A stretch of DNA of 64,000 nucleotides from assembly GCF_002723955.1 (NCBI RefSeq), contig NZ_BEWN01000003.1, positions 186,001-250,000 of the forward strand, read 5' to 3'. Positions 11,938-32,519 of the stretch are shown piece after piece. A program made the translations under genes and the position numbers. The first letter of the stretch is position 1; the number at the start of each line of letters is the position of its first letter. Source of the DNA: Gluconobacter frateurii. Its GTDB lineage: Bacteria; Pseudomonadota; Alphaproteobacteria; Acetobacterales; Acetobacteraceae. The notes under the pieces are model-generated. The model saw only the letters and a list, made by a program, of their open reading frames with translations. It did not search any database and was not told where the DNA came from.

Positions 11938-14295
11938 TCAGAAGTCTGCGCGAACGCGGACTTCCCAGGTTGCCGGACGGCCAGCGACAGCAATGTTGTC
12001 GCCGCCTACAAAGTAACCCCGCGTCACGTCGTAGTGCTTGTCAGTAATGTTGCGGCCAATGCCCTCAATTTTCCAGTGTCCCTTATGCGGTGCGAAGGAA
12101 ATATATCCGCCCCACAATGTGTACCCCGGAATGGTATTGGCGGAGTTCAGAGCCGTGCTTGTGGTGCGAAGGCTGTAATCCACACCGGATACAAGATCAT
12201 ATTTCCCGACGCGCCACGTATAATCGACGGAACCGTTGGCCGTGAAATGCGGCACTTCGATACCACGCCCAGAAACGTCCTGCGTCACGCCGACCCATAC
12301 GCCATTGACCTGCTTTGAACTCGTGACAGCACTGAACTTGTCGTACGCGCCCTCAACATAGGCTCCGGATTGCGCCACATGCAGTCCGGGGATCGGGGAC
12401 CATTCGATCTCGTACTCGCCACCGAACATGTGGGAGCGCGGTGCGTTTACGAACAGACCAATCGCAGAGCCCGTCGTCGGGCTGTAGGCGATGGACTGAA
12501 CCTGACGGTCAAAATAGTCATAGTAGAAGAAGTCAGCATTCACCCGCAGGTTATACCTTGGCAGGATCAGCTTGTTTCCGACTTCGAAAGAATAAAGCTG
12601 CTCGGGCTTGAAGGGATTGGTCATCTGCGTGACGTCAGATGAGTTGTACACCGTGAAGCCACCGGATTTCACACCTTTGCTGAAGGTGAAATACGTCATG
12701 TCATGGCTGAACGGATGGTACTGAATGCTGAATTTTGCAGACGGCAACGTATAGGACTGAGACTGCTGGGCGATGGAATTCTGTGGGTTGGTAACCACTC
12801 CGCCGACAAGATAATGCGCATAAACGTTGTCCAGAGTACGTTTTTCATGCTCCAGTCGAATTCCGCCCACAAGTTGCAGTTTGGGTGTCAGATCGTATGT
12901 CACCTGACCGAAGCCACTGATGGTATTGACCGTCTGAGAGTAACGAACGTCCCCGTCCGTGTTGTATAGTGCCTGAAATCCTGACTGGTATCGGTCATTC
13001 AACCATTGGTGACCGTAATAAATGCCGCCGATCCAGTGTAGCCGCCCCGATGTGTTGGATGAGAACCGAAGTTCGTCAGCTACGACGTTTGCACGTGTGT
13101 TGAACTTTACGTCTGCCAGCGACAACGATGAGTCATCGAAGTTGTCATATTCATCACGCTGCATGTAGTCGTAACTGGCGAGATTCGTGATGGTGAAATC
13201 ACGAAGATGCTTCTCTACCCGCAGGCTGCTACCACCCGTATCGATGTGGCTGTACGGCTTCTGATCTGGCGTTAGACCCGTTTCCTTGGCAAACTGCTCG
13301 GACGTTCCCCAACGCGTATTATAGCGGCTGCTGGATGCGGGCATGGGATTGGTGGAACTCAGGCTGGTAATCGGCTCCCAGGCGTACACACCCGTTCCGT
13401 CAGACCGGTCCCGACTTCCATGCAGGTTCCACTCCAGTTTCCAGCTCTCTGACGGCGCATAATCGACCAAAAGTCGTGCAGCGCCCCGGTCAACATTACC
13501 GAGATGGGCCTTCGCTTCCGGATTATACTGCCATGCGCCGCCCTGCTGGGTTTCTCCAGACAGGCGGAACTTGAGTTTGTCGTTGATTGGGCCGGAAATA
13601 TAACCGTCAATTTTGCCGCTGTCGAAGCGACCATACTGAACAGCCACGCCCCCTGCCAGCTTATCGGTTGGCTTGTTCGTGATGTAGTTGATCGCCCCGC
13701 CCGTCGTGTTACGTCCATAAAGCGTGCCCTGAGGTCCGCGCAGGACTTCAACGCGCTGCATGTCAAACATCATCCCGTTAATGCCGAACGGAACAGGATT
13801 GGCGACTTCATCGATATAGATGCCAACAGTCGGGGAGTTGTTGCTGGCATAGTTGTTAAATCCGACGCCTCGGATCGTATAAGTATATTGGCCGCTCCCA
13901 TAAGACGGCTGGATCTGAAGCGACGGGGTAGCATACTGAAGATCGAACACATTGTTGATGTTCCGATTTTCCAGCATCTTGGCGGAAACGACGCTGATGG
14001 ACGTTCCGATATTCTGCGGACTGTCTGCACGTCGTTCAGATGTCACGACCACATTTTCTACACGTGAGGCTTCGTGATCCTGGGTTTTTGGTGCCGGGCG
14101 CACATGAGCGGTTTTGGAGGGAAGCGTCTCCCCTTTTCGCGTGCTAATCTGCGCGGGCTTTTTGGCTGGAGCGCTATCCTCCGCAGCTGCCGCAACATTC
14201 CAGAATGGCAGCAGTGCTACACTGGAGATAAGGGCAACCCGCCCACGGACAAGGAGGGCATTTCTGCGGTACGGAGCAGTGTGAACGTCGTGCAT
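11938..14295 (-). CDS. TonB-dependent receptor divergent from monooxygenase operon
   Basis: A 785-residue outer-membrane TonB-dependent receptor. It has an N-terminal signal (VALISSVALLPFWNVAAAAE), a linker rich in Lys/Pro/Ser, then a TonB box-like VENVVVTSERR. The plug carries QNIGTSISVVSAKML, YTIRGVGFNNYASN, VEVLRGPQGTLYGRNTTGGAINY. The barrel ends VRVRADF. It has no STN domain, so it is a plain transporter. GGCGGA precedes the start. It shares its upstream region with the nine-gene monooxygenase/ABC operon, so it probably imports that pathway's substrate across the outer membrane (inference). The type resembles receptors for non-siderophore organics as much as iron chelates. Confidence 0.88.
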   Translation of the reverse strand: MHDVHTAPYRRNALLVRGRVALISSVALLPFWNVAAAAEDSAPAKKPAQISTRKGETLPSKTAHVRPAPKTQDHEASRVENVVVTSERRADSPQNIGTSISVVSAKMLENRNINNVFDLQYATPSLQIQPSYGSGQYTYTIRGVGFNNYASNNSPTVGIYIDEVANPVPFGINGMMFDMQRVEVLRGPQGTLYGRNTTGGAINYITNKPTDKLAGGVAVQYGRFDSGKIDGYISGPINDKLKFRLSGETQQGGAWQYNPEAKAHLGNVDRGAARLLVDYAPSESWKLEWNLHGSRDRSDGTGVYAWEPITSLSSTNPMPASSSRYNTRWGTSEQFAKETGLTPDQKPYSHIDTGGSSLRVEKHLRDFTITNLASYDYMQRDEYDNFDDSSLSLADVKFNTRANVVADELRFSSNTSGRLHWIGGIYYGHQWLNDRYQSGFQALYNTDGDVRYSQTVNTISGFGQVTYDLTPKLQLVGGIRLEHEKRTLDNVYAHYLVGGVVTNPQNSIAQQSQSYTLPSAKFSIQYHPFSHDMTYFTFSKGVKSGGFTVYNSSDVTQMTNPFKPEQLYSFEVGNKLILPRYNLRVNADFFYYDYFDRQVQSIAYSPTTGSAIGLFVNAPRSHMFGGEYEIEWSPIPGLHVAQSGAYVEGAYDKFSAVTSSKQVNGVWVGVTQDVSGRGIEVPHFTANGSVDYTWRVGKYDLVSGVDYSLRTTSTALNSANTIPGYTLWGGYISFAPHKGHWKIEGIGRNITDKHYDVTRGYFVGGDNIAVAGRPATWEVRVRADF

Positions 14296-14323: not shown

Positions 14324-14341
14324 GTTGTTATATAAAACAAC
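14324..14341. promoter_or_regulatory. Inverted repeat in the divergent promoter region
   Basis: GTTGTT-ATATAA-AACAAC is a perfect 6+6 palindrome with a 6-base AT spacer. It lies 29 bases upstream of the receptor start and about 110 upstream of the monooxygenase start. The size and position suit a repressor or activator site controlling both directions. No regulator gene lies in the operon. Confidence 0.4.
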
Positions 14342-14373
14342 TATCTATTTGCGTTTAAGGGATAGAAAAACGA

Positions 14374-14396
14374 TTCACAACAGGTTATGCTGTGAA
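14374..14396. promoter_or_regulatory. Second inverted repeat upstream of the monooxygenase gene
   Basis: TTCACA (14374-14379) and TGTGAA (14391-14396) form an inverted repeat with an 11-base spacer, about 50 bases upstream of the preferred start of the monooxygenase gene. The TGTGA half-site resembles CRP/FNR-type or other helix-turn-helix sites, but this is only a pattern. Confidence 0.3.
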
Positions 14397-14448
14397 CGCA
14401 ACATTTTTTTGTGTTTCTGATCGTGACAAAGCAAGAGATCGAACGTCC

Positions 14449-15777
14449 ATGGCTCCCCAGATGAAACTCGCCGCATTCCTTCTCCCAACCGGCCATCATG
14501 CGGCAGCCTGGCGCCATCCTGGTTCGGCCCCGGACGCTGGCAGCAACTTTCAGCGGCAGCTCGAACAGGCGCGCCTTGCCGAGAGTGGGCTCTTCGATGC
14601 AGTATTTATTGCTGATTTTACAAGCTCCATCGACGAAGCCACCCTCGATGGTTTCCGCCGCATGACCTATGCCGCGTCCTTTGAGCCTCTGACGCTTCTT
14701 TCTGCTCTCGCAGCCACCACCAACAAGATTGGGCTGATCGGTACGGTCAGTACAACCTATTCCGTACCCTATCATCTGGCCCGACAGTTTTTGTCTCTGG
14801 ACCAGATCAGTGGCGGCCGTGCGGGATGGAATCTTGTCACAACCGCTAACGTCAAAGAGTCCATCCATTACGGCCGCCCAAGCCACGTCCCTCACGCAGA
14901 TCGCTATCGGCAGGCGCGCGAATTTGCTCAAATCGTGCAGAATTTCTGGGATAGCTGGGACGATGACGCTTTCCTGCGCGACACGGACAGCGGAGAGTTT
15001 TTTAAGCCACAAGGCAGACGTCCCTTCGAGTTCAAGGGGGAATTCCTTTCAGCTGCAGGGCAGATCGATATTCCCCGCTCTCCGCAAGGTAGGCCTGTGC
15101 TCGTTCAGGCTGGATCTTCCGAGCCGGGCCGTCAGCTTGCCGCGGAGACCGCTGAAATGGTCTTCACGGCCCAGCAGACCCTTGAAGAAGCAAAGGCATT
15201 CCGCCTCGATCTGCATCGTCGTATGCGGAACATTGGCCGAGATCCGGCATCCCTGAAGGTCATGCCCGGCGTCTACCCGCTCGTGGGACGTACACAGATG
15301 GAAGCGGAAGATCTGCGGGCACAGCTCGATGATCTGACACATCCGGATGTCGGACTATTTCTTTTGGGTGGCATGACTGGCACTGATCTTCGCGGATTGC
15401 CTCTTGATGGCCCGCTCCCGGACGCTCCGGCCGACTTCAATGGAAATCGCAGCCGGCAGACGCTTCTGGTCGAGATGGCAAAGCGCCGGAACATGACATT
15501 GCGTGACCTGTATCTGGAAGTCAGCGGTGCACGCGGGCACTGGTCCATTTATGGTGGCCCGAAGGAGATTGCGGATCAGCTTGAAGAGTGGTTTGTGGAG
15601 GGTGCAGCTGATGGCTTCAACGTGATGCCGCCGATCCTGCCGCAGAGTCTGGAGATCTTCGTGGATCATGTCGTGCCTGAGCTACAGCGTCGCGGTCTCT
15701 TCCGCACGGCTTATGAGGGCTCGACCCTGCGCGAGCATCTGGGCCTGAAGCGCCCGGCACCCGGCGAGACCCCATGA
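14449..15777 (+). CDS. FMN-dependent monooxygenase, NtaA/SnaA/DszA family
   Basis: A 442-residue luciferase-like (LLM) flavin monooxygenase of the nitrilotriacetate/pristinamycin/dibenzothiophene-sulfone type, which uses FMNH2 and O2 supplied by a separate reductase. Visible family segments are MKLAAFLLPTGHHAAAWRHP, ESGLFDAVFIADF, RFL/QFLSLDQISGGRAGWNLVTT near residue 120, and ADGFNVMPPILP near the C-terminus. I start at ATG 14449 (AAGAGA upstream); an upstream GTG at 14392 falls inside an inverted repeat and adds no homologous sequence. It is the first gene of the operon and overlaps the next by 4 bp. No flavin reductase is present here. The substrate is unknown. Confidence 0.88.
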   Translation: MAPQMKLAAFLLPTGHHAAAWRHPGSAPDAGSNFQRQLEQARLAESGLFDAVFIADFTSSIDEATLDGFRRMTYAASFEPLTLLSALAATTNKIGLIGTVSTTYSVPYHLARQFLSLDQISGGRAGWNLVTTANVKESIHYGRPSHVPHADRYRQAREFAQIVQNFWDSWDDDAFLRDTDSGEFFKPQGRRPFEFKGEFLSAAGQIDIPRSPQGRPVLVQAGSSEPGRQLAAETAEMVFTAQQTLEEAKAFRLDLHRRMRNIGRDPASLKVMPGVYPLVGRTQMEAEDLRAQLDDLTHPDVGLFLLGGMTGTDLRGLPLDGPLPDAPADFNGNRSRQTLLVEMAKRRNMTLRDLYLEVSGARGHWSIYGGPKEIADQLEEWFVEGAADGFNVMPPILPQSLEIFVDHVVPELQRRGLFRTAYEGSTLREHLGLKRPAPGETP

Positions 15778-17252
15778 AATCAGCCTGCGTTCTGTTGGCC
15801 GTAGCGGGCCTAAGATTTGTATCATCAGCCTCAGCTGATCCGCGAGAAACCATGAGCATCGGTGTTTCCATCGAGCCGCCCGGCCTGGACCCAACCCGCA
15901 CACCGAGTGAGGCGGTGGGTACGATCACATATAACAATATCTACGAGGGCCTGACCCGCCTGGACCGGGAGGGGCATGTGCAACCACTCCTCGCCCGTGA
16001 ATGGACTGTCTCCGACGACGGGCGCGTCTATCACTTCACCTTGCAGGATAATGTTCATTTTCACGATGGGTCCCTCTTAACCTGCGAGAATGTCCGCTTT
16101 TCGCTTCTTCGTGCGGGCGCATCCACAAGCACCAACCCGGATCGCAGTTTCTTCACGAATATTGTGGACGTTGCCTGCCCGGATGCATCACATGCGGACG
16201 TCACGCTGAAGAAGCCTCATGGCAGCTTTACCTATGAGCTGGCATGGAATGACGCTTCCATTCTCTCACCGGCATCGGCAGACAAAAACGTCAGCCACCC
16301 GATTGGAACCGGTCCGTTCCAGTTTCAGGAATGGCAACGGGGAGATCATGTCACCCTGTCCCGAAATCCGGATTACTGGGGCAAAGCCCCGCTTTTAAAG
16401 ACGGTGATATTCCGGTTCATGCCTGACCCGCTGGCTGCGAGTAATGCCCTTCTCGCCGGAGAACTGGATGCCTATCCGTCTTTTCCCGCACCAGAGGTTC
16501 TGAGCCGTTTTATCGATCATCCGAGTATCCGGATCGTTCGCGGCACATTTCCGTTCAAGGCCATTCTGGCTCTGAACAACGCCCGCCGGCCCTTTAACGA
16601 CATCCGGGTCCGTCAGGCAGTTGCCTACGCCATTGATCGCAAGGCCCTTGTTCAGGCAGGGGCAGACGGTGAAGGCACGGTTCTGCAATCACATATGGCG
16701 CCTAATGATCCGGATTATGCAGCGCTACCTGACCGTTATCCTTACAATCCTGAAAGAGCACGCGCGCTTCTGAAGGAAGCGGGTATACGGCCGGGGACGC
16801 AGCTCACCCTCTCCTATCCGCCCATCACTTATGCGCGTGATACCAGTGAAATCGTCGCCGCGTATCTCGAACAGGTCGGGCTGATCGTGACGTTACAGCC
16901 GCTTGAATGGCCAGCCTGGCTGGGTCAGGTCTTCGGAAAGGGTAAGTTCGACATGACGGTCATTGCCCATACGGAGCCCCATGACATCGGTATCTATGAT
17001 CGGGAGGCCATATACTTCCACTACAAGAGTCCGGAGTTCCACAGCCTCTTCGAACAGTATGAGGCGACGGAAAATCCCGAAGAGAGACATCGTTTGTCAG
17101 TTGCCATGCAGGACCGTCTTGCACAGGATGAACCCAATGTTTTCCTGTACTCCCGCCCGCGGGACACGGTCATGAACAGTCACATCTTAGGTCTCTGGAC
17201 AGATCAGCAGATCGCCGCTTGCCCCATGGGTGATGTTTCCTGGGAACCATGA
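15774..17252 (+). CDS. Periplasmic substrate-binding protein of peptide-type ABC importer
   Basis: A 492-residue solute-binding protein of SBP family 5 (dipeptide/oligopeptide/nickel). A signal peptide (SACVLLAVAGLRFVSSASA) is followed by SIGVSIEPPGLDPTRT and YNNIYEGLTRLD. Later come NVHFHDGS and GTGPFQFQEW...RNPDYWGKAP, and RRPFNDIRVRQAVAYAIDR in the second lobe, all typical of the family. It overlaps the monooxygenase stop and the permease start by 4 bp each. It would capture the substrate in the periplasm. Family 5 proteins also bind sugars, opines and metal chelates, so a peptide ligand is not assured. Confidence 0.9.
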   Translation: MKSACVLLAVAGLRFVSSASADPRETMSIGVSIEPPGLDPTRTPSEAVGTITYNNIYEGLTRLDREGHVQPLLAREWTVSDDGRVYHFTLQDNVHFHDGSLLTCENVRFSLLRAGASTSTNPDRSFFTNIVDVACPDASHADVTLKKPHGSFTYELAWNDASILSPASADKNVSHPIGTGPFQFQEWQRGDHVTLSRNPDYWGKAPLLKTVIFRFMPDPLAASNALLAGELDAYPSFPAPEVLSRFIDHPSIRIVRGTFPFKAILALNNARRPFNDIRVRQAVAYAIDRKALVQAGADGEGTVLQSHMAPNDPDYAALPDRYPYNPERARALLKEAGIRPGTQLTLSYPPITYARDTSEIVAAYLEQVGLIVTLQPLEWPAWLGQVFGKGKFDMTVIAHTEPHDIGIYDREAIYFHYKSPEFHSLFEQYEATENPEERHRLSVAMQDRLAQDEPNVFLYSRPRDTVMNSHILGLWTDQQIAACPMGDVSWEP

Positions 17253-18199
17253 TGATTGGTCTTGCTCAAACCATTTTTGGACGGCTCGCCGTACTGGCGA
17301 TTGCCAGTGTGATTGTTTTCGCCCTCCTCAGCGTCCTTCCGGGTGATCCCGCGACTGTGATGCTGGGTCTGGACGCCAGCCCTGAAAGTATTGCTGCTCT
17401 TCACCATCAGCTTGGCCTCGATGCGTCTCCCATCACCCGCTATTTTCGCTGGATCTTCGGCCTTTTCCGTGGAAACGCAGGAACGAGTTACGTCTATGAC
17501 GTACCGGTTTCTGGTCTGATCCTTGAGCGCTTTCAAAGCACTTTGCCTCTCATCATCCTTGCGACCATTCTGGCGCTTCTGATCGGCCTTCCGGTTGGAG
17601 CTGTTGCAGCAACCAACCGTGGAAAACGGCTGGATCTGACACTCATGGCAACACTCCAGCTCCTGAAATCCATTCCGGATTTCTGGCTGGCCATGATGAT
17701 GACGTTTCTTTTTTCTTTGACCCTGCACTGGTTTCCCGCTGGTGGGTTCAGTGGTTGGAACAATGGCGTTATTTCCGGCCTTCGTGCCCTCACCCTGCCA
17801 GCAATTGCTCTCGCCATTCCACAGGCTGCGATCATCGCCCGGTTTATGCGATCATCCCTGATCGATACACTGGAACAGGACTTCATCCGCACTGCTCGTG
17901 CCCAGGGTTATAGTCGCCAAGGTATGCTGTGGCAGGTTGCAATCCCGAATGCGGTTATCCCGGTTCTGACGTTGATCGGAATTCAGCTTCCTGTTCTTGT
18001 AACAGGCTCGATCATTGTTGAAAATGTGTTCAACATTCCCGGCTGCGGAAAGCTGCTTCTGGAAGCCGTCAATCAGCGGGATATTCCGGTTGTGCAGAAC
18101 CTTGTCATGCTGATTGTCGCTGGCGTGCTGCTGTTGAACCTGGGTCTTTCGGTTATCATCCGCTGGCTGGACCCGCGCTTGGCAGGAGGCAACACATGA
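17249..18199 (+). CDS. ABC importer permease, DppB type
   Basis: A 316-residue inner-membrane permease with six predicted helices. The N-terminal SVLPGDPATVMLG and the loop HQLGLDASPITRYFRWI are typical of DppB/OppB. The cytoplasmic EAA-type loop is near DFIRTARAQGYSRQGMLWQVAIPNA. It overlaps its neighbours by 4 bp on both sides. With the next gene it forms the membrane channel of the importer. Confidence 0.9.
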   Translation: MMIGLAQTIFGRLAVLAIASVIVFALLSVLPGDPATVMLGLDASPESIAALHHQLGLDASPITRYFRWIFGLFRGNAGTSYVYDVPVSGLILERFQSTLPLIILATILALLIGLPVGAVAATNRGKRLDLTLMATLQLLKSIPDFWLAMMMTFLFSLTLHWFPAGGFSGWNNGVISGLRALTLPAIALAIPQAAIIARFMRSSLIDTLEQDFIRTARAQGYSRQGMLWQVAIPNAVIPVLTLIGIQLPVLVTGSIIVENVFNIPGCGKLLLEAVNQRDIPVVQNLVMLIVAGVLLLNLGLSVIIRWLDPRLAGGNT

Positions 18200-19029
18200 C
18201 GTTGCATCGCGCTCCAAAGAGCCTGCTCGCCGGGAGTGTCCTGCTTCTTGGGTGCCTGATTCCGGCAACGATTGTCTGGATCTGGCACGGCGGTCATGCA
18301 CCGTTCATCGATATTCCGAACCGTTATGCTCCGCCCTCTCTGACCCACCCTCTGGGAACCGATCCCTTCGGACGAGACCTTGCCAGCTATGTTCTGACCG
18401 GCGCGTTCAATACGACGGCGATTGCAGTGCTTTCCGTCGCACTTGCGACGGTTATCGGAACCATTCTCGGACTGGTTGGCGCGAACGGTGGAAAACGAGG
18501 CTGGGCCGTGATGAGCGCTGCCGATCTTGGCTTGGCATTCCCCCCTATTCTTATCGCGGCCATGCTCGTGACCGCACAGGGCGCCTCTGCGACAGGTGAG
18601 ATTCTGGCGATCGCTCTGTTCGGTATTCCCGCACAGATCCGCATTACGAAGCAGGCCGCGCAGTCCATCCTTGTGCTGGATTACATCTCCGCCGCGCGCA
18701 TGGCGGGCTTTGGCTCCGTCGCTGTGACAATCCGCCATGTTCTTCCCAACATCGCGCCGATCCTGATTGTTCATGCCTCGACGTCCCTGGCTCTAGCTAT
18801 CCTGTCTGAAGCAGGTCTGTCCTATCTGGGTCTCGGCGCTCCTCCGCCGCAGCCGGATCTGGGACGGGCTTTGGCGTCCTATCAGATCCACATTTTTGAT
18901 CATCCCTTTCTGGTTGCTGCGCCCGGTGTCACGGTCATGGTGCTCGTTCTCGGCTTCAACCTCCTTGGAGACGGTCTGAGGGACCTTCTTGAGCGCCCCT
19001 TTGCCCGTAACGAGGAGAGCCTGTCATGA
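18196..19029 (+). CDS. ABC importer permease, DppC type
   Basis: A 277-residue second permease. The segment PPSLTHPLGTDPFGRDLAS is the DppC/OppC N-terminal signature, and the EAA loop reads LDYISAARMAGFGSVAVTIRHV. LSEAGLSYLGLGAPPPQPDLG near residue 200 is also diagnostic. It pairs with the DppB-type permease and overlaps the ATPase gene by 4 bp. Confidence 0.9.
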   Translation: MTLHRAPKSLLAGSVLLLGCLIPATIVWIWHGGHAPFIDIPNRYAPPSLTHPLGTDPFGRDLASYVLTGAFNTTAIAVLSVALATVIGTILGLVGANGGKRGWAVMSAADLGLAFPPILIAAMLVTAQGASATGEILAIALFGIPAQIRITKQAAQSILVLDYISAARMAGFGSVAVTIRHVLPNIAPILIVHASTSLALAILSEAGLSYLGLGAPPPQPDLGRALASYQIHIFDHPFLVAAPGVTVMVLVLGFNLLGDGLRDLLERPFARNEESLS

Positions 19030-19859
19030 CAGCATGCCTTTCTGTTCGGGATCTGTCGGTTCTGGCAAGTGCGAAGCCCATTCTTCATCCCATTTCCTTT
19101 ACGGTAAGCCCTGGCGAGACAGTCGCTGTGACGGGTGAATCCGGGTCCGGAAAATCGACGCTGGCCCGTGCGCTGATGGGGCTGCTTCCAAACGGTTTCA
19201 AAACCTGCGGACAGATTATTTTTGAAGGGAAGGATCTTACCACCCTGCCCGAGAGCGCATTTCGTGATCTCCGTGGTTGTCGCATCGCCATGGTGTTTCA
19301 GGAGCCCATGACCGCGCTTAACCCGATCCGCCGTATTGGCAAACAGATCAGTGATACGCTCAGACTTCACGGCGCGGTTCCATCGCGCGACATTGCGCCG
19401 CATGTCCAGCAGTTGCTGGATCGTGTTGGCCTGCGTCGCGCTGGCGTGTCGGCACAAGCCTATCCACACGCACTGTCAGGTGGGCAACGTCAGCGTGTTC
19501 TTCTGGCAATGGCAATTGCCTGCAAACCTGCCCTTCTCATTGCCGACGAATTCACGACCGCGCTCGATAGCAGGACGCAGGCAGAGATGATGGATCTTGT
19601 GAAGGAGCTTGCGGTCGAACATGAGATGGGTGTTCTGATGATTTCTCATGACCTCGGTGTCATCAGGCGTCAGGCGCAGCGCGTTCTGGTTCTTCAGCAA
19701 GGCTATCTCGTTGAAAGCAACGAGACAGAACAGCTATTTGATGCCCCCCGACATCCCTACACGCGTGCGCTTCTCAGCATGTCCCTGCATGGGACCAGCC
19801 ATCCTCCTTTGACCCGTATTCCTGTTCCCACGGATGTTTCTAAAGGCGTTCAGCGATGA
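19026..19859 (+). CDS. ABC importer ATPase, DppD type
   Basis: A 277-residue nucleotide-binding subunit. Walker A is GESGSGKSTLA (about residue 38), the Q-loop is in VFQEPMTALNP, the signature is LSGGQRQRVLLAMAIA, Walker B is ALLIADEFTTALD, and the switch His is in MISHDLG. The C-terminus is shorter than in typical DppD, which usually continues into an oligopeptide-transporter C-terminal region of about 50 residues with cysteines. The gene overlaps the neighbouring ATPase by 4 bp. Confidence 0.9.
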   Translation: MTACLSVRDLSVLASAKPILHPISFTVSPGETVAVTGESGSGKSTLARALMGLLPNGFKTCGQIIFEGKDLTTLPESAFRDLRGCRIAMVFQEPMTALNPIRRIGKQISDTLRLHGAVPSRDIAPHVQQLLDRVGLRRAGVSAQAYPHALSGGQRQRVLLAMAIACKPALLIADEFTTALDSRTQAEMMDLVKELAVEHEMGVLMISHDLGVIRRQAQRVLVLQQGYLVESNETEQLFDAPRHPYTRALLSMSLHGTSHPPLTRIPVPTDVSKGVQR

Positions 19860-20629
19860 GTGCTCTACTGGAAGCAAAGAACATCGCATACAGCGTGCCC
19901 GAACGTGGCTCTTCTGTTTTCGGTTCTCGCAAAAAAACAGTTCTGCAGGACGTCAGCCTTCATGTGGCTGAGCGCGAAACATTGGGCATCGTCGGGTCTT
20001 CCGGCAGTGGAAAATCCACCCTCTCCCGTATTCTGACCGGGCTTATAAGGCCGGAAAAGGGTAAGATCCTGTTTCAGGGTCAGGATCTGCGCGATGCTAA
20101 CAGGCAGGTCAGGAAAGACATCCGGCCCAGCATTCAGATGATTTTCCAGGACCCTCAGGGGGCGCTCGATCCTCGCCAGACCGTGCGGCAGATTGTGAAA
20201 GAGCCGCTCCATCAGATGGCCCTGAGCAACGACGAAAAAGAACGTCGGGTTCTTGAGGCGCTGGCAGATGTTGCTCTTCCTCAGGATGCTGCCGATCGGT
20301 ACCCGAGGATGTTCTCCGGTGGCCAGAGACAGCGGATTGCCATCGCCCGTGCCCTCGTGACACGTCCCTCAGTCATTGTCGCAGATGAGGCAGTCTCCGC
20401 TTTGGATGTCTCGACGCAAGCTGTGGTTCTGAACCTGCTGCTGGACCTTCAGAAGCGGCATGGCCTTTCCTATATTTTTGTTAGTCACGATCTGGCAGTT
20501 ATCCGCCATATTTCCCATCGTGTTGCCGTCCTTGACGAGGGCAAGATTGTGGAAACCGGTCCTACCCTGTCAGTGATGGATCATCCTCAGCATGCCGCCA
20601 CCCAAGACCTTATTGACGCCAGCCTTTGA
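19856..20629 (+). CDS. ABC importer ATPase, DppF type
   Basis: A 257-residue second ATPase of the heterodimer. Walker A is GSSGSGKSTLS, the Q-loop is in IFQDPQGALDPRQTV, the signature is FSGGQRQRIAIARALV, Walker B is SVIVADEAVSALD, and the switch His is in FVSHDLAVI. The QDPxxALxPR segment marks the DppF branch. It completes the importer: one binding protein, two permeases and two ATPases. Confidence 0.9.
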   Translation: MSALLEAKNIAYSVPERGSSVFGSRKKTVLQDVSLHVAERETLGIVGSSGSGKSTLSRILTGLIRPEKGKILFQGQDLRDANRQVRKDIRPSIQMIFQDPQGALDPRQTVRQIVKEPLHQMALSNDEKERRVLEALADVALPQDAADRYPRMFSGGQRQRIAIARALVTRPSVIVADEAVSALDVSTQAVVLNLLLDLQKRHGLSYIFVSHDLAVIRHISHRVAVLDEGKIVETGPTLSVMDHPQHAATQDLIDASL

Positions 20630-20642
20630 AACGACGCCAATC

Positions 20643-21683
20643 ATGATTTCCAGACCACGCAATAACCTTATTACAGACGTGCCGGGCATCCGCGTCGGTA
20701 ATGTTCAGAACCTTGACCAGAGAACGGGGGTGACAGCCCTGCTTTTTGATCAGCCAGCAGTCGCATCCGGAAGCTTTCCGGGAGGTGCCCCGGCATTGCG
20801 GGAAAGTGCATTACTGGAACCGGAAATGATCGTGAGTGGCATTGATGCGGTCGTGCTGTCAGGCGGATCTACCTACGGCCTGGATGCGACTTCGGGTGTG
20901 CAGGCCTGGTTACGGGAACAGGCGGCACATCTGCCCATCCCCGAAAAACAGGTCCGCGTGCCCATCGTTGTTCAGGCAAGCCTGTTTGATCTCGTGAATG
21001 GCGGTGACAAAGACTGGGGCCGGTACTCCCCCTATGCAGAACTGGGCTATCAGGCCGCTCAAGCCGCACAAAATGGCGATTTTGCACTTGGAACCACAGG
21101 AGCCGGAACCGGGGCGACCACCACGCCGCTAAGGGGTGGTCTGGGGTCTGCGAGCGCAATGACGCCTTCAGGCCATACCGTTGCTGCCCTGATGGTGGTC
21201 AATGCGGTCGGGACGGCGACAATCGGCGATGGACCACATTTTTGGAGCGCCCCTTTTGAGCAGGATAATGAATTCGGCGGCTTAGGCTTTCCATCACGCC
21301 TGACAGAAAATGATCTTCGTTTGCGCATGAAGCCGAACTATGTGGCGGGAACGACGATCGGTGTCATCGCTACCGATGCGATTTTGACAAAAGCTGAGGC
21401 CAAGCGTCTTGCCATTCTGGCGCAAGATGGCATCGCGCGCGGGGTCTTTCCAGCTCATCTGCCGCAGGATGGCGATGCGGTCTTCGGTGTCTCAACGGGC
21501 CATGCGCCAGCGCCAGCGTCTGTAGAAGTATGGACGGAAATTCTGCACGCAGCGACGCAGGTCACGGCCCGCGCCATTGCCCGGGGTGTCTATGAAGCCT
21601 CGCCCTTGCCGGGAGAGCCGTTCCTTCCGACATGGAGCGAACGGTTTGGTGCCCTGAAACAGGGAAATGCGAATCATGGCTGA
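20643..21683 (+). CDS. P1-family aminopeptidase (DmpA/beta-aminopeptidase-like)
   Basis: A P1-family N-terminal-nucleophile hydrolase, related to L-aminopeptidase D-Ala-esterase/amidase DmpA and BapA. These enzymes are made as precursors that cut themselves. Family segments are NLITDVPGIRVGN, TGVTALLFD, VVLSGGSTYGLDATSGVQ, GTTGAGTGATT and, in the probable catalytic subunit, AGTTIGVIATDA with FGVSTGHA. The autocleavage site should be at the Gly-Thr of AGTTIG (inferred from the family). The frame is open from 20592, overlapping the ATPase gene; the ATG at 20643 gives the normal family start. No signal peptide is seen, so it is probably cytoplasmic. It would hydrolyse an amide or peptide brought in by the importer. 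Confidence 0.85.
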   Translation: MISRPRNNLITDVPGIRVGNVQNLDQRTGVTALLFDQPAVASGSFPGGAPALRESALLEPEMIVSGIDAVVLSGGSTYGLDATSGVQAWLREQAAHLPIPEKQVRVPIVVQASLFDLVNGGDKDWGRYSPYAELGYQAAQAAQNGDFALGTTGAGTGATTTPLRGGLGSASAMTPSGHTVAALMVVNAVGTATIGDGPHFWSAPFEQDNEFGGLGFPSRLTENDLRLRMKPNYVAGTTIGVIATDAILTKAEAKRLAILAQDGIARGVFPAHLPQDGDAVFGVSTGHAPAPASVEVWTEILHAATQVTARAIARGVYEASPLPGEPFLPTWSERFGALKQGNANHG

Positions 21684-22539
21684 TGTTCTTCCTGCGCCTA
21701 CGGCTTTCTTCCGTGTTCCGGGGCGTCGTCTGGCACTTTCCACGCTTGAAAAAGGCAGTGACACGACGCTGGTCTTTGTTCATGGGCTAGGAGGAAACCG
21801 GCAGCAATGGCGGTTGCAATGGGAGCGTTTTTCTCAGGAAAACGTCAATCTTGTTGCGTGGGATGCGTACGGTCATGGCGAGAGTGCGCGCTCCCAGCAT
21901 GAGCAGGCTTTCCTCAGCACCTATGTGGTTGAGGATCTCGCTACGATCCTGAAGGATCACCCGTCTTCAAAACGCATTCTGGTGGCTCATTCATTCGGTT
22001 GCCGAGTGACGCTGGAATGGATTGCGGGTCTGCTCCAGGCTGGAAAGACTGTCCCTGTCGATGAACTCATCCTTCTCGGGCCAGCGTCTCTCACGCCGTC
22101 CCTTAAAGGGCCGATGTTTGGGAATTGGATGGACCGGCTGCCCTTCTGGCTGGCCTCTTTCGCACGACCTTTCCTGCAGAAGCGCTTTGAAGCTCTGGCG
22201 TGGGGGCCAAATGTTGATCCGGCCATTTTGAAGGCCGAACGCAAGGCAACGAAACGGAACAGCCTGTTCATGATCAATGCGGTCCGCTCAGGTGCCCAAC
22301 CCATTGATACCCAGATTTTGCGACAGTTCGGAAAGCCCGTGCATATTCTCGCGGGACAGGACGACGGTATTGTCCCTCTCGCAGAAATACAGAAAATTCA
22401 TGACCTTATTCCGGCAAGCTCTCTCGATGTCCTTTCCGATTGCGGGCATCAGATCATGCTGGAGCAACCTGCCATCGTGAACCACGTCATCGAAAGTGCC
22501 CTCAACCGCCTCTCCTCTGGGCAGGATACGCATTCATGA
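21676..22539 (+). CDS. Alpha/beta hydrolase
   Basis: A 287-residue alpha/beta-fold hydrolase. The oxyanion region is FVHGLGGNRQQW, the nucleophile elbow is AHSFG (a variant of GxSxG with Ser at about residue 100), an Asp occurs in LAGQDDGIVPL, and the catalytic His is in DCGHQIMLEQP near the C-terminus. I prefer ATG 21676 because AGGGAA (21661-21666) is 9 bases upstream; ATG 21667 would abut it. It overlaps the peptidase stop by 8 bp and the TPR gene by 4 bp. It could be an esterase, amidase or C-C hydrolase in the same pathway. Confidence 0.82.
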   Translation: MADVLPAPTAFFRVPGRRLALSTLEKGSDTTLVFVHGLGGNRQQWRLQWERFSQENVNLVAWDAYGHGESARSQHEQAFLSTYVVEDLATILKDHPSSKRILVAHSFGCRVTLEWIAGLLQAGKTVPVDELILLGPASLTPSLKGPMFGNWMDRLPFWLASFARPFLQKRFEALAWGPNVDPAILKAERKATKRNSLFMINAVRSGAQPIDTQILRQFGKPVHILAGQDDGIVPLAEIQKIHDLIPASSLDVLSDCGHQIMLEQPAIVNHVIESALNRLSSGQDTHS

Positions 22540-23753
22540 GTCAGGACGCTCTCGGGAACGAAGTTTCGACAACCGATGAGAAGACGCTGCAAGGGATCAA
22601 CGCCTTTATCCTCGGCTATCTAGGCTATGATCTCAGACTGGTGGAAATCCTTGGTATTGCAGATCAATCCGATGATTGTCTGGCGAACACCTATGCCGGG
22701 CTTCTCTGGATGCTGTCTGAAACTGGAGATATTCCTGCCGAAGCGCTTCGCTATCGAGACCGGGCAAAAGCTTCGTATGATCAGGCCCTGCCGCGGGAAA
22801 AACTGCTTTTCGCCGTGCTGGAAGCATCCATTGCAGAAGATCCAGACCAGATTGTCGAACTGACGGATATCATTCTGTCGCAGTGGCCACGCGACTTGGT
22901 AACGCTGAAGCTCCGGCAATATCATGATTTCATTCGTGGGCGCTTCACGGACATGCTGGCTATCGCCCAGAACAGCGAGGAGGCTGCCGGAGATGTGGCC
23001 GCGCTGCATGGAATGCTCGCGTTCGGTTTCGAGCAGTGTCATGACCTGGACGCGGCTGAAGGGTCGGCCCGACGCGCACTTGAAATGGACCCGTCCGAGC
23101 CTTGGGCGCAACACGCACTGGCGCATGTGTTCCTGACGCAAGGGCGGATCGAGGAAGGTATCGCGTTTCTGGAAGCCCGATCAGCAGGCTGGGAACGCCT
23201 GACGTCTTTCATGTACACGCATCTCTGGTGGCATCTCGCCCTGTTCTATCTGGCTCAGAACCGAGTAACAGACGCGCTTAAGATCTATGATGAGCACTGC
23301 TGGAGCAGAGAGCGCAGTTTTTCACAGGATCAGGTGGGCGCGGTGTCCCTGCTCGTGCGACTTGAGCTTGCAGATGCAGATGTGGGACAACGTTGGGCAG
23401 ATCTCGCAGACTGGCTTGCTCCCCGACAGGACGATGTTAGCCAGCCCTTCCTGAGTTTGCAGTATCTCTATGGCCTGCTGAAAGCTGGCAGGCCGGAAGG
23501 AGAGCATCTGCTCCAGCGCATTGAAAATCTCTCGGGCAAGAACCTTCCCGATCAGCGGGCCTGGGATCTTGTCGGTATTCCACTGGCGCGTGGCTTGAAG
23601 GCTTATCTGGGCCATGATCCCCTTACGGCTCAGGGATATTTTGAAACGGCGCTCCCTCACCTTCAGGATATTGGGGGAAGCCATGCACAACGTGATCTCT
23701 TCCTGCAAATTCAAAAGGATATCACACGTCAGCTATCAGGGCTGTCAGACTGA
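22536..23753 (+). CDS. TPR protein, TTC38/StaR-like
   Basis: A 405-residue, probably cytoplasmic helical-repeat protein. The frame is open from 22440, but ATG 22536 overlaps the hydrolase stop as ATGA and has AGGAT upstream. The middle region (about residues 150-290) has repeats such as [20 protein letters not shown] and [19 protein letters not shown], matching the TTC38/StaR-like TPR family. StaR is known only as a regulatory or accessory factor in staurosporine synthesis; the biochemical role of the family is unclear. It is the last gene of the operon and its end overlaps the convergent monooxygenase by 9 bp. Confidence 0.75.
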
Positions 23754-24743
23754 AATCTCGGATTTGATTTTGGCAGCCAACTCCAGCGAGCGGCAACGGC
23801 TGTCATGGTCATGAACAGGGACAGCGATCATGAGTTCATCAGGTCTGTGGCGGTTTACAAACGCCTGGATCTGCTCAGAGACGGTCTCCCTTGAGCCTGC
23901 AAAGGTGTAGGATAATGTCTGTTCAAGCATGATCTGCTCTTCAGCAGACCAGAGGGACAGAACATTGCTGACGGGCGGAGGAAACGCCATCGGCCGTCCG
24001 CGCCTTAGTGCCATGAAGTATTGATAAAGCGACGTAGCAAGGCGCTTCCCTTCGGCTTCTTCATCAGCGGCGATGACGTTTACTGTTAGCATTACATGGG
24101 GTTTGGCACAGCGTTCTGAAGGCACGAAACGTGAGCGATAAAGCGTAATGGCCTCTTCCATCTGTGCCGGCGCAAAGTGGGAAGCAAACGCATATGGGAG
24201 CCCCAGTTGCGCTGCCAGAACTGCGGAAAACAACGAAGAGCCCAAAATCCAGACGGGGACACGCAGGCCCATACCCGGGACCGCCTTTATCAGATGAGTA
24301 TCGTCGTCAGTGGCAGGCTCAAAATAGTGCAGCAGTTCCACGACATCTTCGGGGAAACGATCAGGGGCAGCAGGATCACGACGCAAAGCACGAGCGGTCT
24401 TCTGATCGGCACCGGGGGCGCGGCCCAGCCCAAGATCTATCCGTCCGGGAAACAGCGTTTCCAGCGTTCCGAATTGTTCGGCAATAACAAGTGGAGAATG
24501 GTTGGGAAGCATGATGCCGCCCGATCCTACCCTGATGCGGGTGGTCGCGCCTGCAACCTGCCCGATCAGAACAGCGGTCGCAGCAGATGCAATTCCCGGC
24601 ATCGCATGATGCTCGGCCAGCCAGTATCGATGGAAGCCGAGACTTTCAGCACGTTTTGCAAAATCTATCGAATGGCGGAACGCCTCCCGTGGACCAGAAC
24701 CCTGCGTAATGATCGACAGATCAAGAACAGAAAATGGGATCAT
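23745..24743 (-). CDS. Luciferase-like flavin monooxygenase, MsnO8 type
   Basis: A 332-residue LLM-class oxidoreductase. It opens [14 protein letters not shown] and contains [45 protein letters not shown] cut into the usual FMN-binding pattern, and [14 protein letters not shown], typical of the MsnO8 subgroup. A second in-frame start three codons upstream (24749) exists; AAGGA has better spacing to 24743. It converges on the TPR gene, so both flavin enzymes of this region flank the same operon. The substrate and reductase are unknown. Confidence 0.85.
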
Positions 24744-24749
24744 GGTCAT

Positions 24750-27300: not shown

Positions 27301-28296
27301 TTATCGGCGCAGTAGCAGAACCAGTAGAAACGCTGCGCCGATTGCCGAAATAACGATCCCGACTGGCAATTCCTGAGACGGCAGCACGCAGCGGCTGAGG
27401 ATATCTGCCATGACCGTCAGCATGCCTCCGGCAACCATCGCAGGCATGAAGCTCCCTTTCAAAGAGCTACCCCAGATTGGACGGACAAGATGCGGTACAA
27501 TCAGGCCTACAAAACCGATCGGGCCACAAAGGGCGACGGTCATGGCGCAGCCAAAGGCACAGAGCGCGAGAACGCATAACCTGAGCTTTTGAATATGGAT
27601 CCCCAGAGAAGCGGCCGTCTCTTCGCCGGCCATCAAGGCATCAAGTTCTCTTCGATAGGCAAGGCCACCCAACAATACCGGCAGGAAGCCAAGACCGACA
27701 ACAGGAAGCGCTGACCAGGACGCTCCTGAAAAACTTCCCATTGTCCAGAACAGAACCGACTGCGCCGTATTTCGATCCCCCCAGAAGATCAGGAGGTTGG
27801 TCAGTGTTGAAAAAATAAACGACACAGCAAGCCCCGACAGCAAGACGCGTTCTGTCGAAACGGCAAGGTTGTTCTTTCGTCTGAACACAATCAAAAGAAG
27901 CAGTGCGCCTGTTGCGAGGAAAGCTCCCACTGAGGCACCCACAGCAGCCGTCCAGATCCCCAATAGATCGCCACAGAGTACAATGACTGCGACGGCCCCT
28001 GTCGCGGCCCCGGAAGACAGGCCGAAGAGAAAGGGATCTGCCAGAGGATTGCGGGTGGCAGCCTGAAGAAGAGCCCCTGCGCCGGCCAGAGTAGCGCCGG
28101 TCAGGAAGGCAAGAAAAAATCGGGGTATTCGCAGAGACCAGAGAATACGAGCGGCGATATCATGACTATGCGGGCCAGCCCAGAAACCTGTCTTCAGTGC
28201 TCCCCAGGACATGGAAGCGCTGCCAAGCACAGTTTCGAGCACACCCAGCCCCACAATGACGGGGATGGCAACATAAAGACTGATCTGCCGGATCAC
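27301..28296 (-). CDS. btuC: FecCD-family ABC permease, probable cobalamin importer
   Basis: A 331-residue permease of the FecCD/BtuC family. Family segments are LRIPRFFLAFLTGATLAGAGALLQ, NPLADPFLFGLSSGAATG, GPIGFVGLIVPHLVR, and the ending SQELPVGIVISAIGAAFLLVLLLRR. It is the last of four genes (receptor, ATPase, binding protein, permease) read from a cobalamin riboswitch, so B12 or a cobinamide precursor is the likely cargo. On sequence alone, an iron chelate would be equally possible. Confidence 0.87.
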   Translation of the reverse strand: MIRQISLYVAIPVIVGLGVLETVLGSASMSWGALKTGFWAGPHSHDIAARILWSLRIPRFFLAFLTGATLAGAGALLQAATRNPLADPFLFGLSSGAATGAVAVIVLCGDLLGIWTAAVGASVGAFLATGALLLLIVFRRKNNLAVSTERVLLSGLAVSFIFSTLTNLLIFWGDRNTAQSVLFWTMGSFSGASWSALPVVGLGFLPVLLGGLAYRRELDALMAGEETAASLGIHIQKLRLCVLALCAFGCAMTVALCGPIGFVGLIVPHLVRPIWGSSLKGSFMPAMVAGGMLTVMADILSRCVLPSQELPVGIVISAIGAAFLLVLLLRR

Positions 28297-29243
28297 GGTT
28301 TGGTCTCTGGATGCAGAAATACAGATATTTTTTCGATTGCATCAATGTTGGCCGGAGACGGCGTCATCTCATCATAGCGTACTGCCAGAATGCGATTGGC
28401 TTTTAGGGCAGCATTCTCGATCAGAAGAGGATGGCTCCGCAGAAACGCCAGGCTCTCTGAAATGCCACTGCCGTAATCCACGATGAGAATAGCCTCAGGG
28501 TCTCTGACAGCCACATTCTCCCAAGATGCTGAACCCCAGTTTGTCGGTAGATCGCTGAAGATGTTCTGGCCGCCTCCGAGCCAGATCAGCTCCGTTGCCA
28601 GAGCATATTTCCCGGCCGTAAAGGGACGATCACGTCCGCTATCGTAGAGAAACACGCGCAAAGGGTGATGCCCAACAAGCCGGCTCTGGACTGCCCGAAC
28701 GCGATTTTTCCAGCCTTCTACAAGACTCTGGGCTTCTGCGGTGCGGTCAAAGACCTGCCCCAGACGCTCCTCATCGTCATAGAGTAAGTCTAGCGTGGGG
28801 CGTCCAGAAGTCTGTCCCACCCTCATGCAGCTTTCGGAGAGAACAAGGGTTGGAATCCCTTGTGCGGCCAGCGTTTCCGGTGTGACGTCTCCTCCGACAT
28901 GCATTCCGTAGTTCCAGCCGGCAAAGAAGAAATCCGTTCCAGCATTCAGAAGCTGCTCAAGCGTCGGGTAATGTGTAGCGATCTCCGGAAGAGCGCCGAG
29001 TTTTTTTTGAAATGCAGGTGTGCGCTTGTTCCAGCCGGAAATGCCCGTCACCCCTGCCATGAAAGGCTGCAAGTGAAGCGCAAAGGCCATTTCTGCCATG
29101 TTGACGTCGTGAATGACGGCGTGGGTCGGTCTGTGGGTGATCGTCACAGGCTTGCCGCAGCTCTGGATCGTTATCGGGTAAGAAAAAGCATTCTGAACAC
29201 TCAAAAGCGCTCCCAGGCCCATAGCCCATAAGGAATTTTTCAA
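28293..29243 (-). CDS. btuF: Periplasmic binding protein, FecB/BtuF-like
   Basis: A 316-residue cluster-III (helical backbone) binding protein. A signal peptide (LWAMGLGALLSVQNAFSYP) is followed by ITIQSCGKPVTITHRPTHAVIHD and YPTLEQLLNAGTDFFFAGWNYG. Its gene overlaps the ATPase gene and the permease gene by 4 bp each. The upstream riboswitch points to corrinoid binding. Two cysteines (SCGKP, SCMRVG) may form a disulfide. Confidence 0.83.
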   Translation of the reverse strand: MKNSLWAMGLGALLSVQNAFSYPITIQSCGKPVTITHRPTHAVIHDVNMAEMAFALHLQPFMAGVTGISGWNKRTPAFQKKLGALPEIATHYPTLEQLLNAGTDFFFAGWNYGMHVGGDVTPETLAAQGIPTLVLSESCMRVGQTSGRPTLDLLYDDEERLGQVFDRTAEAQSLVEGWKNRVRAVQSRLVGHHPLRVFLYDSGRDRPFTAGKYALATELIWLGGGQNIFSDLPTNWGSASWENVAVRDPEAILIVDYGSGISESLAFLRSHPLLIENAALKANRILAVRYDEMTPSPANIDAIEKISVFLHPETKP

Positions 29244-29998
29244 GGCTTTACGGACCTGAACAGGAGCGACACGTGCCCATCGTCGAGCGTAATCTGATGC
29301 GTGTTCAACCTGAACGTTTCTTCAAACATTTTTGAAAACAAGATCTGGCGGGACGGTCCATCCATGAGCAGGTGGCCATTACTCAAAAGAAGCGTTCTGG
29401 CTGCGAAGTCAGGAATGAAAGACAGATCGTGTAGGACCGCCAGAATAGTCATAGGGAGTGTTCGTAACAGAGTCAGAAGCTCTGATCGTGCCGCGAGGTC
29501 CAGATGATTTGTGGGTTCATCCAGCAGCAGGATACGGGGTGTCTGTGCCAGACATCGCGCCAGCATAACCCGCTGACGCTCCCCGCCTGAAAGGCTTCCC
29601 ATGGTGCGCTTCATCAGCGAACTGACACTACAATGGTCAACAGCACTTTGTATTGTCACGTCATCTTCGACATGAGTGGACGTCCCCTGAAATGGGAGGC
29701 GCCCAAGCGCAATGTAATCAGACACCAGAAACTCGGACGCAACGTCATCGCTCTGGGACAACCACGCGATCTGACGGGCGATCTCACGCCGCGAAAGATT
29801 TTTGAGTGGCTGACCCACCAGCGCAACATGCCCCTGAGAGGGTGTTAGCAAGCCTGCCAAAAGTTTCAACAGAGTGCTTTTTCCGGCTCCGTTCGGGCCG
29901 ATAACCGCGATATGCTCGCCAGCTCTGACGGAGAGATCCGCCAGAGCCAGCGCGCCGTCATATCCCAACTCTTTAGCCTGTAATATGACGTCCGACAC
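29240..29998 (-). CDS. btuD: ABC ATPase, FecE/BtuD-like
   Basis: A 252-residue ATPase. Walker A is GPNGAGKSTLLKLL, the Q-loop region is IAWLSQSDDV, the signature is LSGGERQRVMLARCLA, Walker B is ILLLDEPTNHLD, and the switch His is in AVLHDLSF. It follows the receptor stop by two bases and powers the FecCD permease. The LDEPTNHLD form is usual for the FecE/BtuD branch. Confidence 0.88.
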   Translation of the reverse strand: MSDVILQAKELGYDGALALADLSVRAGEHIAVIGPNGAGKSTLLKLLAGLLTPSQGHVALVGQPLKNLSRREIARQIAWLSQSDDVASEFLVSDYIALGRLPFQGTSTHVEDDVTIQSAVDHCSVSSLMKRTMGSLSGGERQRVMLARCLAQTPRILLLDEPTNHLDLAARSELLTLLRTLPMTILAVLHDLSFIPDFAARTLLLSNGHLLMDGPSRQILFSKMFEETFRLNTHQITLDDGHVSLLFRSVKP

Positions 29999-30000
29999 TG

Positions 30001-32226: not shown

Positions 32227-32265
32227 GGATAACGCAAACTTCACTCAACAATGCGTCACTACGAT

Positions 32266-32510: not shown

Positions 32511-32519
32511 TGAGCAAAG

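Follow-up and report, generated by a model that had tools for sequence, protein, structure and literature searches.

We analysed a 64-kb window (the whole stretch of DNA under study) from Gluconobacter frateurii and describe here nine co-directional genes on its + strand (14449-23753), identified by reading open reading frames with their starts and stops, together with the two genes that flank them. The nine genes encode a luciferase-like monooxygenase (LLM) that depends on flavin mononucleotide (FMN), a five-part ATP-binding cassette (ABC) importer, a P1 hydrolase, an alpha/beta hydrolase (ABH) and a tetratricopeptide repeat (TPR) protein. They are flanked by a divergent gene for a TonB-dependent receptor and a convergent gene for a second LLM (Table 1). 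The genome is 3.31 Mb and 99.97% complete. We suggest below that the locus may serve the acquisition of vitamin B5-class compounds.

Table 1. Positions of the features of the locus within the window.
Feature	Position	Strand	Models and remarks
TonB-dependent receptor	11938..14295	-	PF07715 and PF00593; divergent from the operon
Inverted repeat, operator-like, TTCACAACA-n5-TGCTGTGAA	14374..14396		Divergent promoter region; putative function
NtaA/DmoA-family FMN-dependent LLM	14449..15777	+	First gene; PF00296, TIGR03860
Family 5 substrate-binding protein of the importer	15774..17252	+	PF00496
Importer permease B	17249..18199	+	PF00528, PF19300
Importer permease C	18196..19029	+	PF00528
Importer ATPase D	19026..19859	+	PF00005
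Importer ATPase F	19856..20629	+	PF00005
P1/S58 hydrolase, ThnT-like	20643..21683	+	PF03576
ABH	21667..22539 (or from 21676)	+	PF12697
TPR protein	22536..23753	+	PF14559
MsnO8-family LLM oxidoreductase	23745..24749	-	Convergent; TIGR03558

Gene order and conservation within Gluconobacter

The nine genes are tightly packed. Six junctions are 4-bp overlaps, and the P1 gene starts after a 13-bp gap, with no overlap with the second ATPase gene. The original prediction for this DNA had described overlaps of 4 or 8 bp and one small gap, which was right for the 4-bp junctions and the gap. The P1 and ABH genes overlap by 17 bp, or by 8 bp if the second ATG (21676) is the ABH start. The convergent LLM gene (TIGR03558, 435.5 bits versus a cut-off of 166.95) overlaps the TPR gene by 9 bp. 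The gene families that had been named for the nine genes (LLM, binding protein, two permeases, two ATPases, P1, ABH and TPR) were all matched by Pfam or NCBIfam models, and the divergent receptor and the convergent LLM were found as described. As had also been said, no flavin reductase is encoded among the nine genes, the receptor gene and the convergent LLM gene.

The complete gene set is conserved in a subgroup of Gluconobacter. We searched 26 Gluconobacter genomes with the binding protein (E <= 1e-60) and inspected all positive loci. The importer was present in 20 of the 26 genomes, and in six of these 20 (the window, G219, G205, G213, G204 and G221) the receptor, LLM, importer, P1, ABH and TPR genes were in the same order. 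Four of the five relatives have all 11 genes, and the fifth (G221) has 10, being the only one of the six loci in which the convergent LLM is absent from this place. The other 14 importer-bearing genomes carry, of the window's gene set, just the importer and P1 (one of these regions, L296, stops at a contig end). The original prediction had named a complete lack of conservation of this order as an outcome that would count against it; the full order is kept in this subgroup and, as shown below, a core of it is kept more widely.

In the five relatives, most junctions are also 4-bp overlaps (two are of 1 bp in G221), the P1 gene starts 10-14 bp after the second ATPase gene, and the receptor is 77-95% identical to that of the window. 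The ratio of nonsynonymous to synonymous substitution rates (dN/dS) was 0.02-0.16 across the genes of the locus, wherever dS could be computed. Because five other Gluconobacter genomes hold these genes as well, with low dN/dS, we conclude that the locus is real beyond chance. The window's binding protein is 91% identical to its counterpart in Gluconobacter thailandicus F149-1.

The inverted repeat between the receptor and the first LLM gene has 8 of 9 arm positions complementary. Using a pattern derived from the repeat itself, we found it in G205, G213 and G204, with two substitutions in G219 and in degenerate form in G221. It was matched in 8 of 288 loci, every one a copy of the receptor-LLM locus, and the sole other match in the window (at most 3 mismatches allowed), at 51633, had 3.

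Relatives of the hydrolase, the importer and the monooxygenases

The P1 hydrolase is most closely related to ThnT. It matched PF03576 with 190.8 bits (curated cut-off 23.9), and its best relative of solved structure was ThnT (E 3.6e-47), with nylon hydrolases next. It had been predicted to be a DmpA-like aminopeptidase; this was not borne out, as the match to 1b65, which we take to be DmpA, had an E value of 2.6 and that to the beta-peptidyl aminopeptidase 3n2w one of 0.64. The protein is ThnT-like with a Thr nucleophile. Thr237 is invariant at the ThnT nucleophile position in all 55 aligned P1 rows, ThnT included, and the ThnT residue opposite it in the alignment is a Cys in the 3s3u and 4ihd chain. 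We predict that the protein cleaves itself between Gly236 and Thr237 (Thr codon 21351-21353); the residue before the nucleophile is Gly in the operon P1 and Asn in ThnT. ThnT cuts the amide between pantothenate and cysteamine. It degrades the pantetheinyl group to cysteamine, but it serves thienamycin biosynthesis and acts only on the carbapenem-bound group (according to passages of PMC6097109). In a tree of P1 proteins, those from the importer operons of Acetobacteraceae formed one supported group, those linked to a symporter another, and those from other importer loci two more. Because P1 proteins of different clades pair with the same importer family, P1 seems to have been joined to this family more than once.

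The importer has the build of a dipeptide importer, and its binding protein passes none of the models listed for such proteins. The original prediction of a full five-part dipeptide-type importer was upheld for the five-part build and the domains (PF00496, PF00528 twice and PF00005 twice), which are those of the Dpp, Opp, Gsi and Nik importers. The binding protein stayed far below the cut-offs of all models listed (NikA, GsiB, DppA, OppA, SapA, CntA and others), with 112.1 bits versus 1005 for the DppA equivalog NF043070. In the alignment with DppA, the two salt-bridge positions of DppA fall in or beside gaps, which speaks neither for nor against a dipeptide site. The importer also differs from the known systems in the context of its relatives, which includes panB-panC, amidase, P1, and aldehyde dehydrogenase (ALDH) and short-chain dehydrogenase/reductase (SDR) genes.

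We determined this context in the best 80 of 581 importer loci, obtained by scanning genome contigs with the binding protein; amidases were counted at 50% identity or more, and three weaker ones (L102, L116 and L124) were told apart. Among these 80 loci, an amidase was present in 32, P1 in 20, either in 51 and both in one (four with the weaker amidases). ALDH and SDR genes occurred together in 30 loci. They accompanied the importer and an amidase in 24 loci and the importer and P1 in three, and also in L285. Gene orders included GntR-ALDH-SDR-importer-amidase-leuB in Ensifer (L232), importer-ALDH-SDR-P1 in Qingshengfaniella and importer-amidase-amidase in Paracoccus; SDR, cupin and P1 genes lie downstream of the permeases in Roseobacter ponti. 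The loci with ALDH, SDR, importer and either amidase or P1 fit a pathway in which a pantothenate-like amide is hydrolysed and the alcohol group of the resulting pantoate is then oxidised. The Ensifer amidase (L232, 15436-16827) passes NF005450, and we regard the amidases of the sister loci as candidates for pantothenase (EC 3.5.1.22, from Pseudomonas fluorescens), an enzyme that hydrolyses the amide of a pantothenate compound. The protein identity of pantothenase was given as unknown in 2023 (in a passage of PMC10393543). The window operon differs from such loci in that it has no amidase.

Several relatives of the importer are linked to the pantothenate synthesis genes panB and panC. Three of the best 80 loci contain panB-panC (L143 in Roseivivax, L157 in Defluviimonas and L154 in an alphaproteobacterial metagenome-assembled genome). 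Elsewhere, panB-panC adjoins an importer relative in Ruegeria (L234) and occurs with the amidase and importer in a different order in Agrobacterium (L233). In Tateyamaria (L284), panC-panB is divergent from the binding-protein gene, which lies 144 bp from panB, with permease, ATPase and ALDH genes beyond. On two Tritonibacter plasmids, panB is near an importer relative as judged by coordinates, and only panB was seen.

The importer, P1, ABH and TPR genes also occur together outside Gluconobacter. A TPR homologue was found in 96 of 200 Acetobacteraceae genomes, and we fetched 20 regions, 13 around the best TPR homologues outside Gluconobacter and seven around P1 genes. The order binding protein, permeases B and C, ATPases D and F, P1, ABH, TPR was present only in G181 and G001 of these 20 regions, from two other genera of Acetobacteraceae; the ABH is kept with P1 and TPR in both, at 36-37% identity. 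In G130, binding-protein, permease and amidase genes are present and P1 is convergent. The TPR protein may work together with P1, as the two are adjacent in three Devosia loci (L140, L147 and L151, TPR identity 46-48%), behind importer-ALDH-SDR. We rejected the TPR gene alone as a marker of the system, as ten other Acetobacteraceae genomes with TPR homologues of 41-46% identity had no importer or P1 in the regions fetched (L064 and L067 are cut close by contig ends).

The receptor belongs to the unit. In G181, a receptor gene is followed in the same direction by an amidase-signature gene and the binding-protein gene, giving the order receptor-amidase-importer-P1-ABH-TPR. We examined 20 additional P1 regions and found a second arrangement, receptor-amidase-P1-symporter in one direction, in G056 and elsewhere in the G001 genome. 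G037 and G022 have receptor-P1-symporter; G025 and the importer-less Gluconobacter genomes G054, G131 and G180 have P1-symporter; in G042 the symporter is divergent from P1, and G218 has P1 without such a symporter in the stretch examined. Receptor homologues (48-54% identity) precede P1 or the importer in G181, G056, G001, G037 and G022. The assignment of the receptor is based on the unidirectional order of receptor, amidase and P1 with either the symporter (G056 and G001) or the importer, ABH and TPR (G181). Genome G001 carries both operons, importer-P1-ABH-TPR (L063) and receptor-amidase-P1-symporter (L272), at separate places.

The first LLM is a member of the NtaA/DmoA family of FMN monooxygenases (TIGR03860, 530.6 bits versus a cut-off of 279.7), in agreement with the NtaA/SnaA/DszA type predicted for it. 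Its nearest solved chains were 3sdo, YtnJ, DszA and EDTA monooxygenase, and its dN/dS was 0.019-0.034 in four comparisons. Six of the 20 Gluconobacter genomes with the importer have it. It was found in none of the 20 regions inspected around TPR or P1 homologues, including those of G181 and G001, and among the best 80 importer loci only in L082, from G. thailandicus, itself a Gluconobacter. We therefore rejected the LLM as the core of the unit, since the operon occurs without it in G181 and G001 and since the 14 remaining Gluconobacter loci have, of the window's gene set, the importer and P1 only. Its absence from every related operon inspected outside the Gluconobacter subgroup indicates that it was not the part around which importer and P1 evolved. 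The predicted single unit, joining import across both membranes (outer and inner) with oxidation and the hydrolysis of amides, is supported; the receptor belongs to it, as its co-directional relatives show, but the LLM is not supported as a core part. The receptor and P1 accompany two different inner-membrane carriers, and the amidase or the LLM look like exchangeable additions.

Whether the convergent LLM belongs to the unit is uncertain. MsnO8-type LLM genes occur in 6 of the best 80 importer loci, and in five loci of Microvirga (L148, L152, L156, L160 and L161) a gene for an MsnO8-family protein of 52-54% identity converges on an importer of this family, as it does in the window.

Vitamin B5 status of the host genomes

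The window genome lacks genes for pantothenate synthesis and keeps a kinase for the vitamin. We found no PF02548 (panB) or PF02569 (panC) match in this genome, and it encodes a type III pantothenate kinase (PF03309), the pattern expected of B5 salvage. Work of about 1949 reportedly found that coenzyme A (CoA) stimulates the growth of Acetobacter suboxydans, as Gluconobacter was formerly called. Both panB and panC are missing from all five genomes that hold the complete 11-gene set, and G221 has both. That Gluconobacter needs pantothenate has long been observed: G. oxydans 621H depends on pantothenic acid, as did 58% of 95 Gluconobacter strains (as stated in passages of PMC9682679). The sodium/pantothenate symporter PanF, which brings B5 into the cell, is not supported as the B5 route in this genus, as no protein in any of the 26 Gluconobacter genomes exceeded the TIGR02119 cut-off. 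Nine Gluconobacter genomes keep panC without panB (the weak panC match of G180 was counted as negative). In the absence of panB, these nine would need external pantoate or pantothenate.

P1 genes are found preferentially in genomes without panB. P1 was present in 24 of the 26 Gluconobacter genomes, including all 18 without panB, and was missing only from G208 and G212, both of which have panB and panC. Of 200 Acetobacteraceae genomes, 84 had P1, and 17 of these also had panB; among the 116 that lacked P1, 71 had panB (Fisher 5.7e-9; these counts ignore phylogeny). P1 was scored as present at E <= 1e-40, so that a truncated copy (G190) and weak matches (G051, G142, G171 and G189) counted as negative; panB was scored as present at E <= 1e-30, with six weak matches near E 1e-4 counted as negative. 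With one genome per genus (101 of 102 genera), panB was present in 12 of 44 genomes with P1 and 37 of 57 without (p 2.6e-4).

Possible acquisition of vitamin B5-class compounds

Based on the panB-panC linkage of importer relatives, the loss of panB and panC with retention of the kinase, the kinship of P1 with ThnT and the anti-correlation of P1 with panB, we suggest that the locus acquires a vitamin B5-class compound in a bacterium without panB and panC. We consider this reading, including the substrate, the direction of use and the enzyme reactions, to be close to evenly balanced between right and wrong. Also in its favour are the pairing of P1 proteins from different clades with this importer family, the pairing of a further P1 group with a symporter and the same type of receptor, and the loci that join ALDH and SDR to the importer and an amidase or P1. 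The TonB receptor would move a pantothenate compound that porins cannot deliver, because of its size or its scarcity (pantetheine, pantethine, a CoA fragment or another pantothenate amide), across the outer membrane, and the importer, an Opp/Dpp fold recruited for B5-type cargo instead of dipeptides, would move it into the cytoplasm. There P1, activated by self-cleavage before Thr237, would cut the amide that joins a partner to the carboxyl side of pantothenate. The freed pantothenate would then pass through the type III pantothenate kinase to CoA synthesis. We propose that P1 is a pantetheine or pantothenamide hydrolase, which we prefer to a pantothenase because destroying pantothenate makes little sense in this genome. 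The LLM, ABH and TPR proteins would prepare or handle modified forms, the ABH perhaps as an esterase or lactonase. The LLM may break an amide, C-S or C-N bond that is otherwise blocked, and we propose that it cleaves a substituted pantetheine or amide oxygenolytically. Such an unblocking step is plausible, because the LLM gene directly precedes the importer, where G181 has an amidase, and because the superfamily members RutA, DszA and HcbA1 cleave amide and other bonds via flavin-N5 oxygen adducts (according to part of PMC7662398).

Several results weigh against this reading. The LLM is its least explained part, with no clear place in the scheme. The P1-linked symporter of some Gluconobacter resembles PanF only weakly (25.3 bits versus a cut-off of 328.05) and has MctP, a monocarboxylate permease, as its best model (94.6 bits versus 625), both scores being far below the cut-off. 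Of the best 80 importer loci, 24 have no amidase, P1, ALDH, SDR or panB gene within the sequence examined, and the binding protein is without a B5-type partner at plasmid loci of Thalassococcus, Rhizobium tumorigenes, Sulfitobacter and Thioclava. The importer and amidase of Aureimonas adjoin 5-oxoprolinase and urea amidolyase genes. On the one Pseudosulfitobacter plasmid inspected, the amidase lies away from the importer, beside purine catabolism genes; this genus accounts for 45 of the 64 plasmid records with the amidase family. Because the LeuB of Ensifer scores above the cut-off for ordinary leuB, we do not claim it as a dimethylmalate dehydrogenase.

The statistics carry further objections of the same kind. 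Within Gluconobacter alone, the association of P1 and panB was not significant (p 0.086), and the importer did not track auxotrophy, as panB and panC are both missing from four of the six genomes without the importer and both present in 6 of the 20 with it. Control genes were also associated with panB, more weakly, across the 200 genomes (TPR p 6e-4, LLM p 7e-3) and at the genus level (p 0.07 and 0.005), so part of the signal reflects lineage. When genomes were divided by size (leaving out two further genomes), P1 and panB were significantly associated only at >=4.2 Mb (panB in 3 of 26 versus 9 of 17, p 0.005; smaller classes p 1.0 and 0.17); in that class neither TPR (p 0.73) nor LLM (p 0.18, with only three genomes without LLM) was significant. 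Finally, we had expected genomes whose importer locus is linked to ALDH, SDR or panB-panC to be panB-positive, and this expectation failed. Of 20 genomes hand-picked from the best 80 loci, 17 were counted (L082, L083 and L135 were left out), and eight had panB and nine did not. All nine are Rhizobiales by name. The importer-bearing Rhizobiales comprised 13 hand-picked genomes of unstated completeness, including three Devosia and four Microvirga; 9 of the 13 lack panB, compared with 8.4% of 84 rhizobial genomes (a figure from part of PMC7142369; Fisher 4e-6). The importer is thus common in panB-less genomes, which fits uptake and makes it less likely that the ALDH/SDR loci serve catabolism alone.

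The strongest alternative is that the locus takes up and breaks down a natural amide or beta-peptide as a source of nitrogen, sulfur or carbon, with P1, amidase, ALDH and SDR forming an amide-catabolism kit unrelated to B5. Both the P1 and the amidase family accept a wide range of amides. The nylon hydrolases that follow ThnT among the relatives of P1, the frequency of amidase or P1 (51 of 80 loci) and of ALDH with SDR (30 of 80), and the Aureimonas locus described above all agree with this view. It leaves unexplained the panB-panC linkage, the absence of panB and panC and the anti-correlation of P1 with panB, and we consider it rather unlikely.

A degradation operon led by the LLM, like the systems for EDTA, nitrilotriacetate (NTA) or S-succinocysteine, appears less probable still. 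Here the importer would take in a chelate or an S-conjugate, the LLM would make the first cut, and P1 and ABH would finish the breakdown. Two kinds of known operon are comparable: EppABCD-EmoAB, an importer-monooxygenase operon for EDTA and NTA, and ytm/yxe, the S-conjugate operons of Bacillus subtilis. They share with the window a binding-protein importer and an NtaA-family LLM, and EDTA monooxygenase and YtnJ, together with NTA monooxygenase and DszA, are among the best solved relatives of the first LLM. Consistent with such a role, the LLM gene is the first of the operon, and in each of the five comparisons its dN was lower than that of the other eight genes; sets of LLM and binding-protein importer occur elsewhere in the family (L221, L223 and L226); and plasmid relatives of the LLM (about 55% identity) lie beside genes for sulfonate-binding protein, sulfite dehydrogenase or rhodanese, with others beside further ABC importers. 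The window differs from the known operons in its additional P1, ABH, TPR and receptor genes and in its lack of a flavin reductase in the operon, the receptor gene and the convergent LLM gene (a genome-wide search was not made), and the core exists without the LLM, which is missing from every related operon inspected outside the Gluconobacter subgroup. More generally, we found no direct support for the substrates that had been put forward, namely beta-peptides, opines, chelates and sulfonates, although LLM relatives do adjoin sulfur genes on plasmids.

Catabolism of pantothenate itself, with P1 taking the part that the amidase plays in Ensifer-type loci, is very improbable: the two enzymes are together in only one of 51 loci (four of 80 with the weaker amidases) and each sits with ALDH and SDR, but the nine operon genes include neither ALDH nor SDR, and pantothenate destruction would be harmful to a genome without panB and panC.

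Every protein family in the locus is already known, and the combination and the link to B5 are new as far as our literature search went. In a limited search of the open-access literature, we found no pantothenate ABC importer of this kind, no cloned bacterial pantothenase, no report of this gene combination and none of a link between this importer family and B5. If the B5 reading is correct, the locus would be a concrete system for uptake and release of B5-class compounds in auxotrophs, a family of "dipeptide" importers across the Alphaproteobacteria would be re-assigned, and the NF005450 amidases of the sister loci would be a testable gene family for pantothenase. It would also bear on how a genus with a long-known need for pantothenate (PMC9682679, in part) obtains it with no PanF above the cut-off. 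A fuller version is speculative and, in our view, rather unlikely: in a B5 acquisition route not described before, the TonB receptor, Opp-type importer and ThnT-type hydrolase would feed auxotrophic acetic acid bacteria on CoA breakdown products, with the LLM unblocking modified pantetheine, and the sister loci of Ensifer, Devosia and Rhodobacterales would hold the missing pantothenase and pantoate-oxidising enzymes.

The window also contains a vitamin B12-type uptake set (27301-32523), recognised by a riboswitch match and reading of open reading frames, about 2.5 kb past the convergent LLM gene. It consists of a TonB receptor gene (30001-32244) behind a cobalamin riboswitch (32322-32523) and, sharing its strand, the genes of an ABC importer (27301-29998). 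A second cobalamin riboswitch (58608-58842, - strand) lies upstream of two - strand open reading frames (57045-58097 and 53666-57100).

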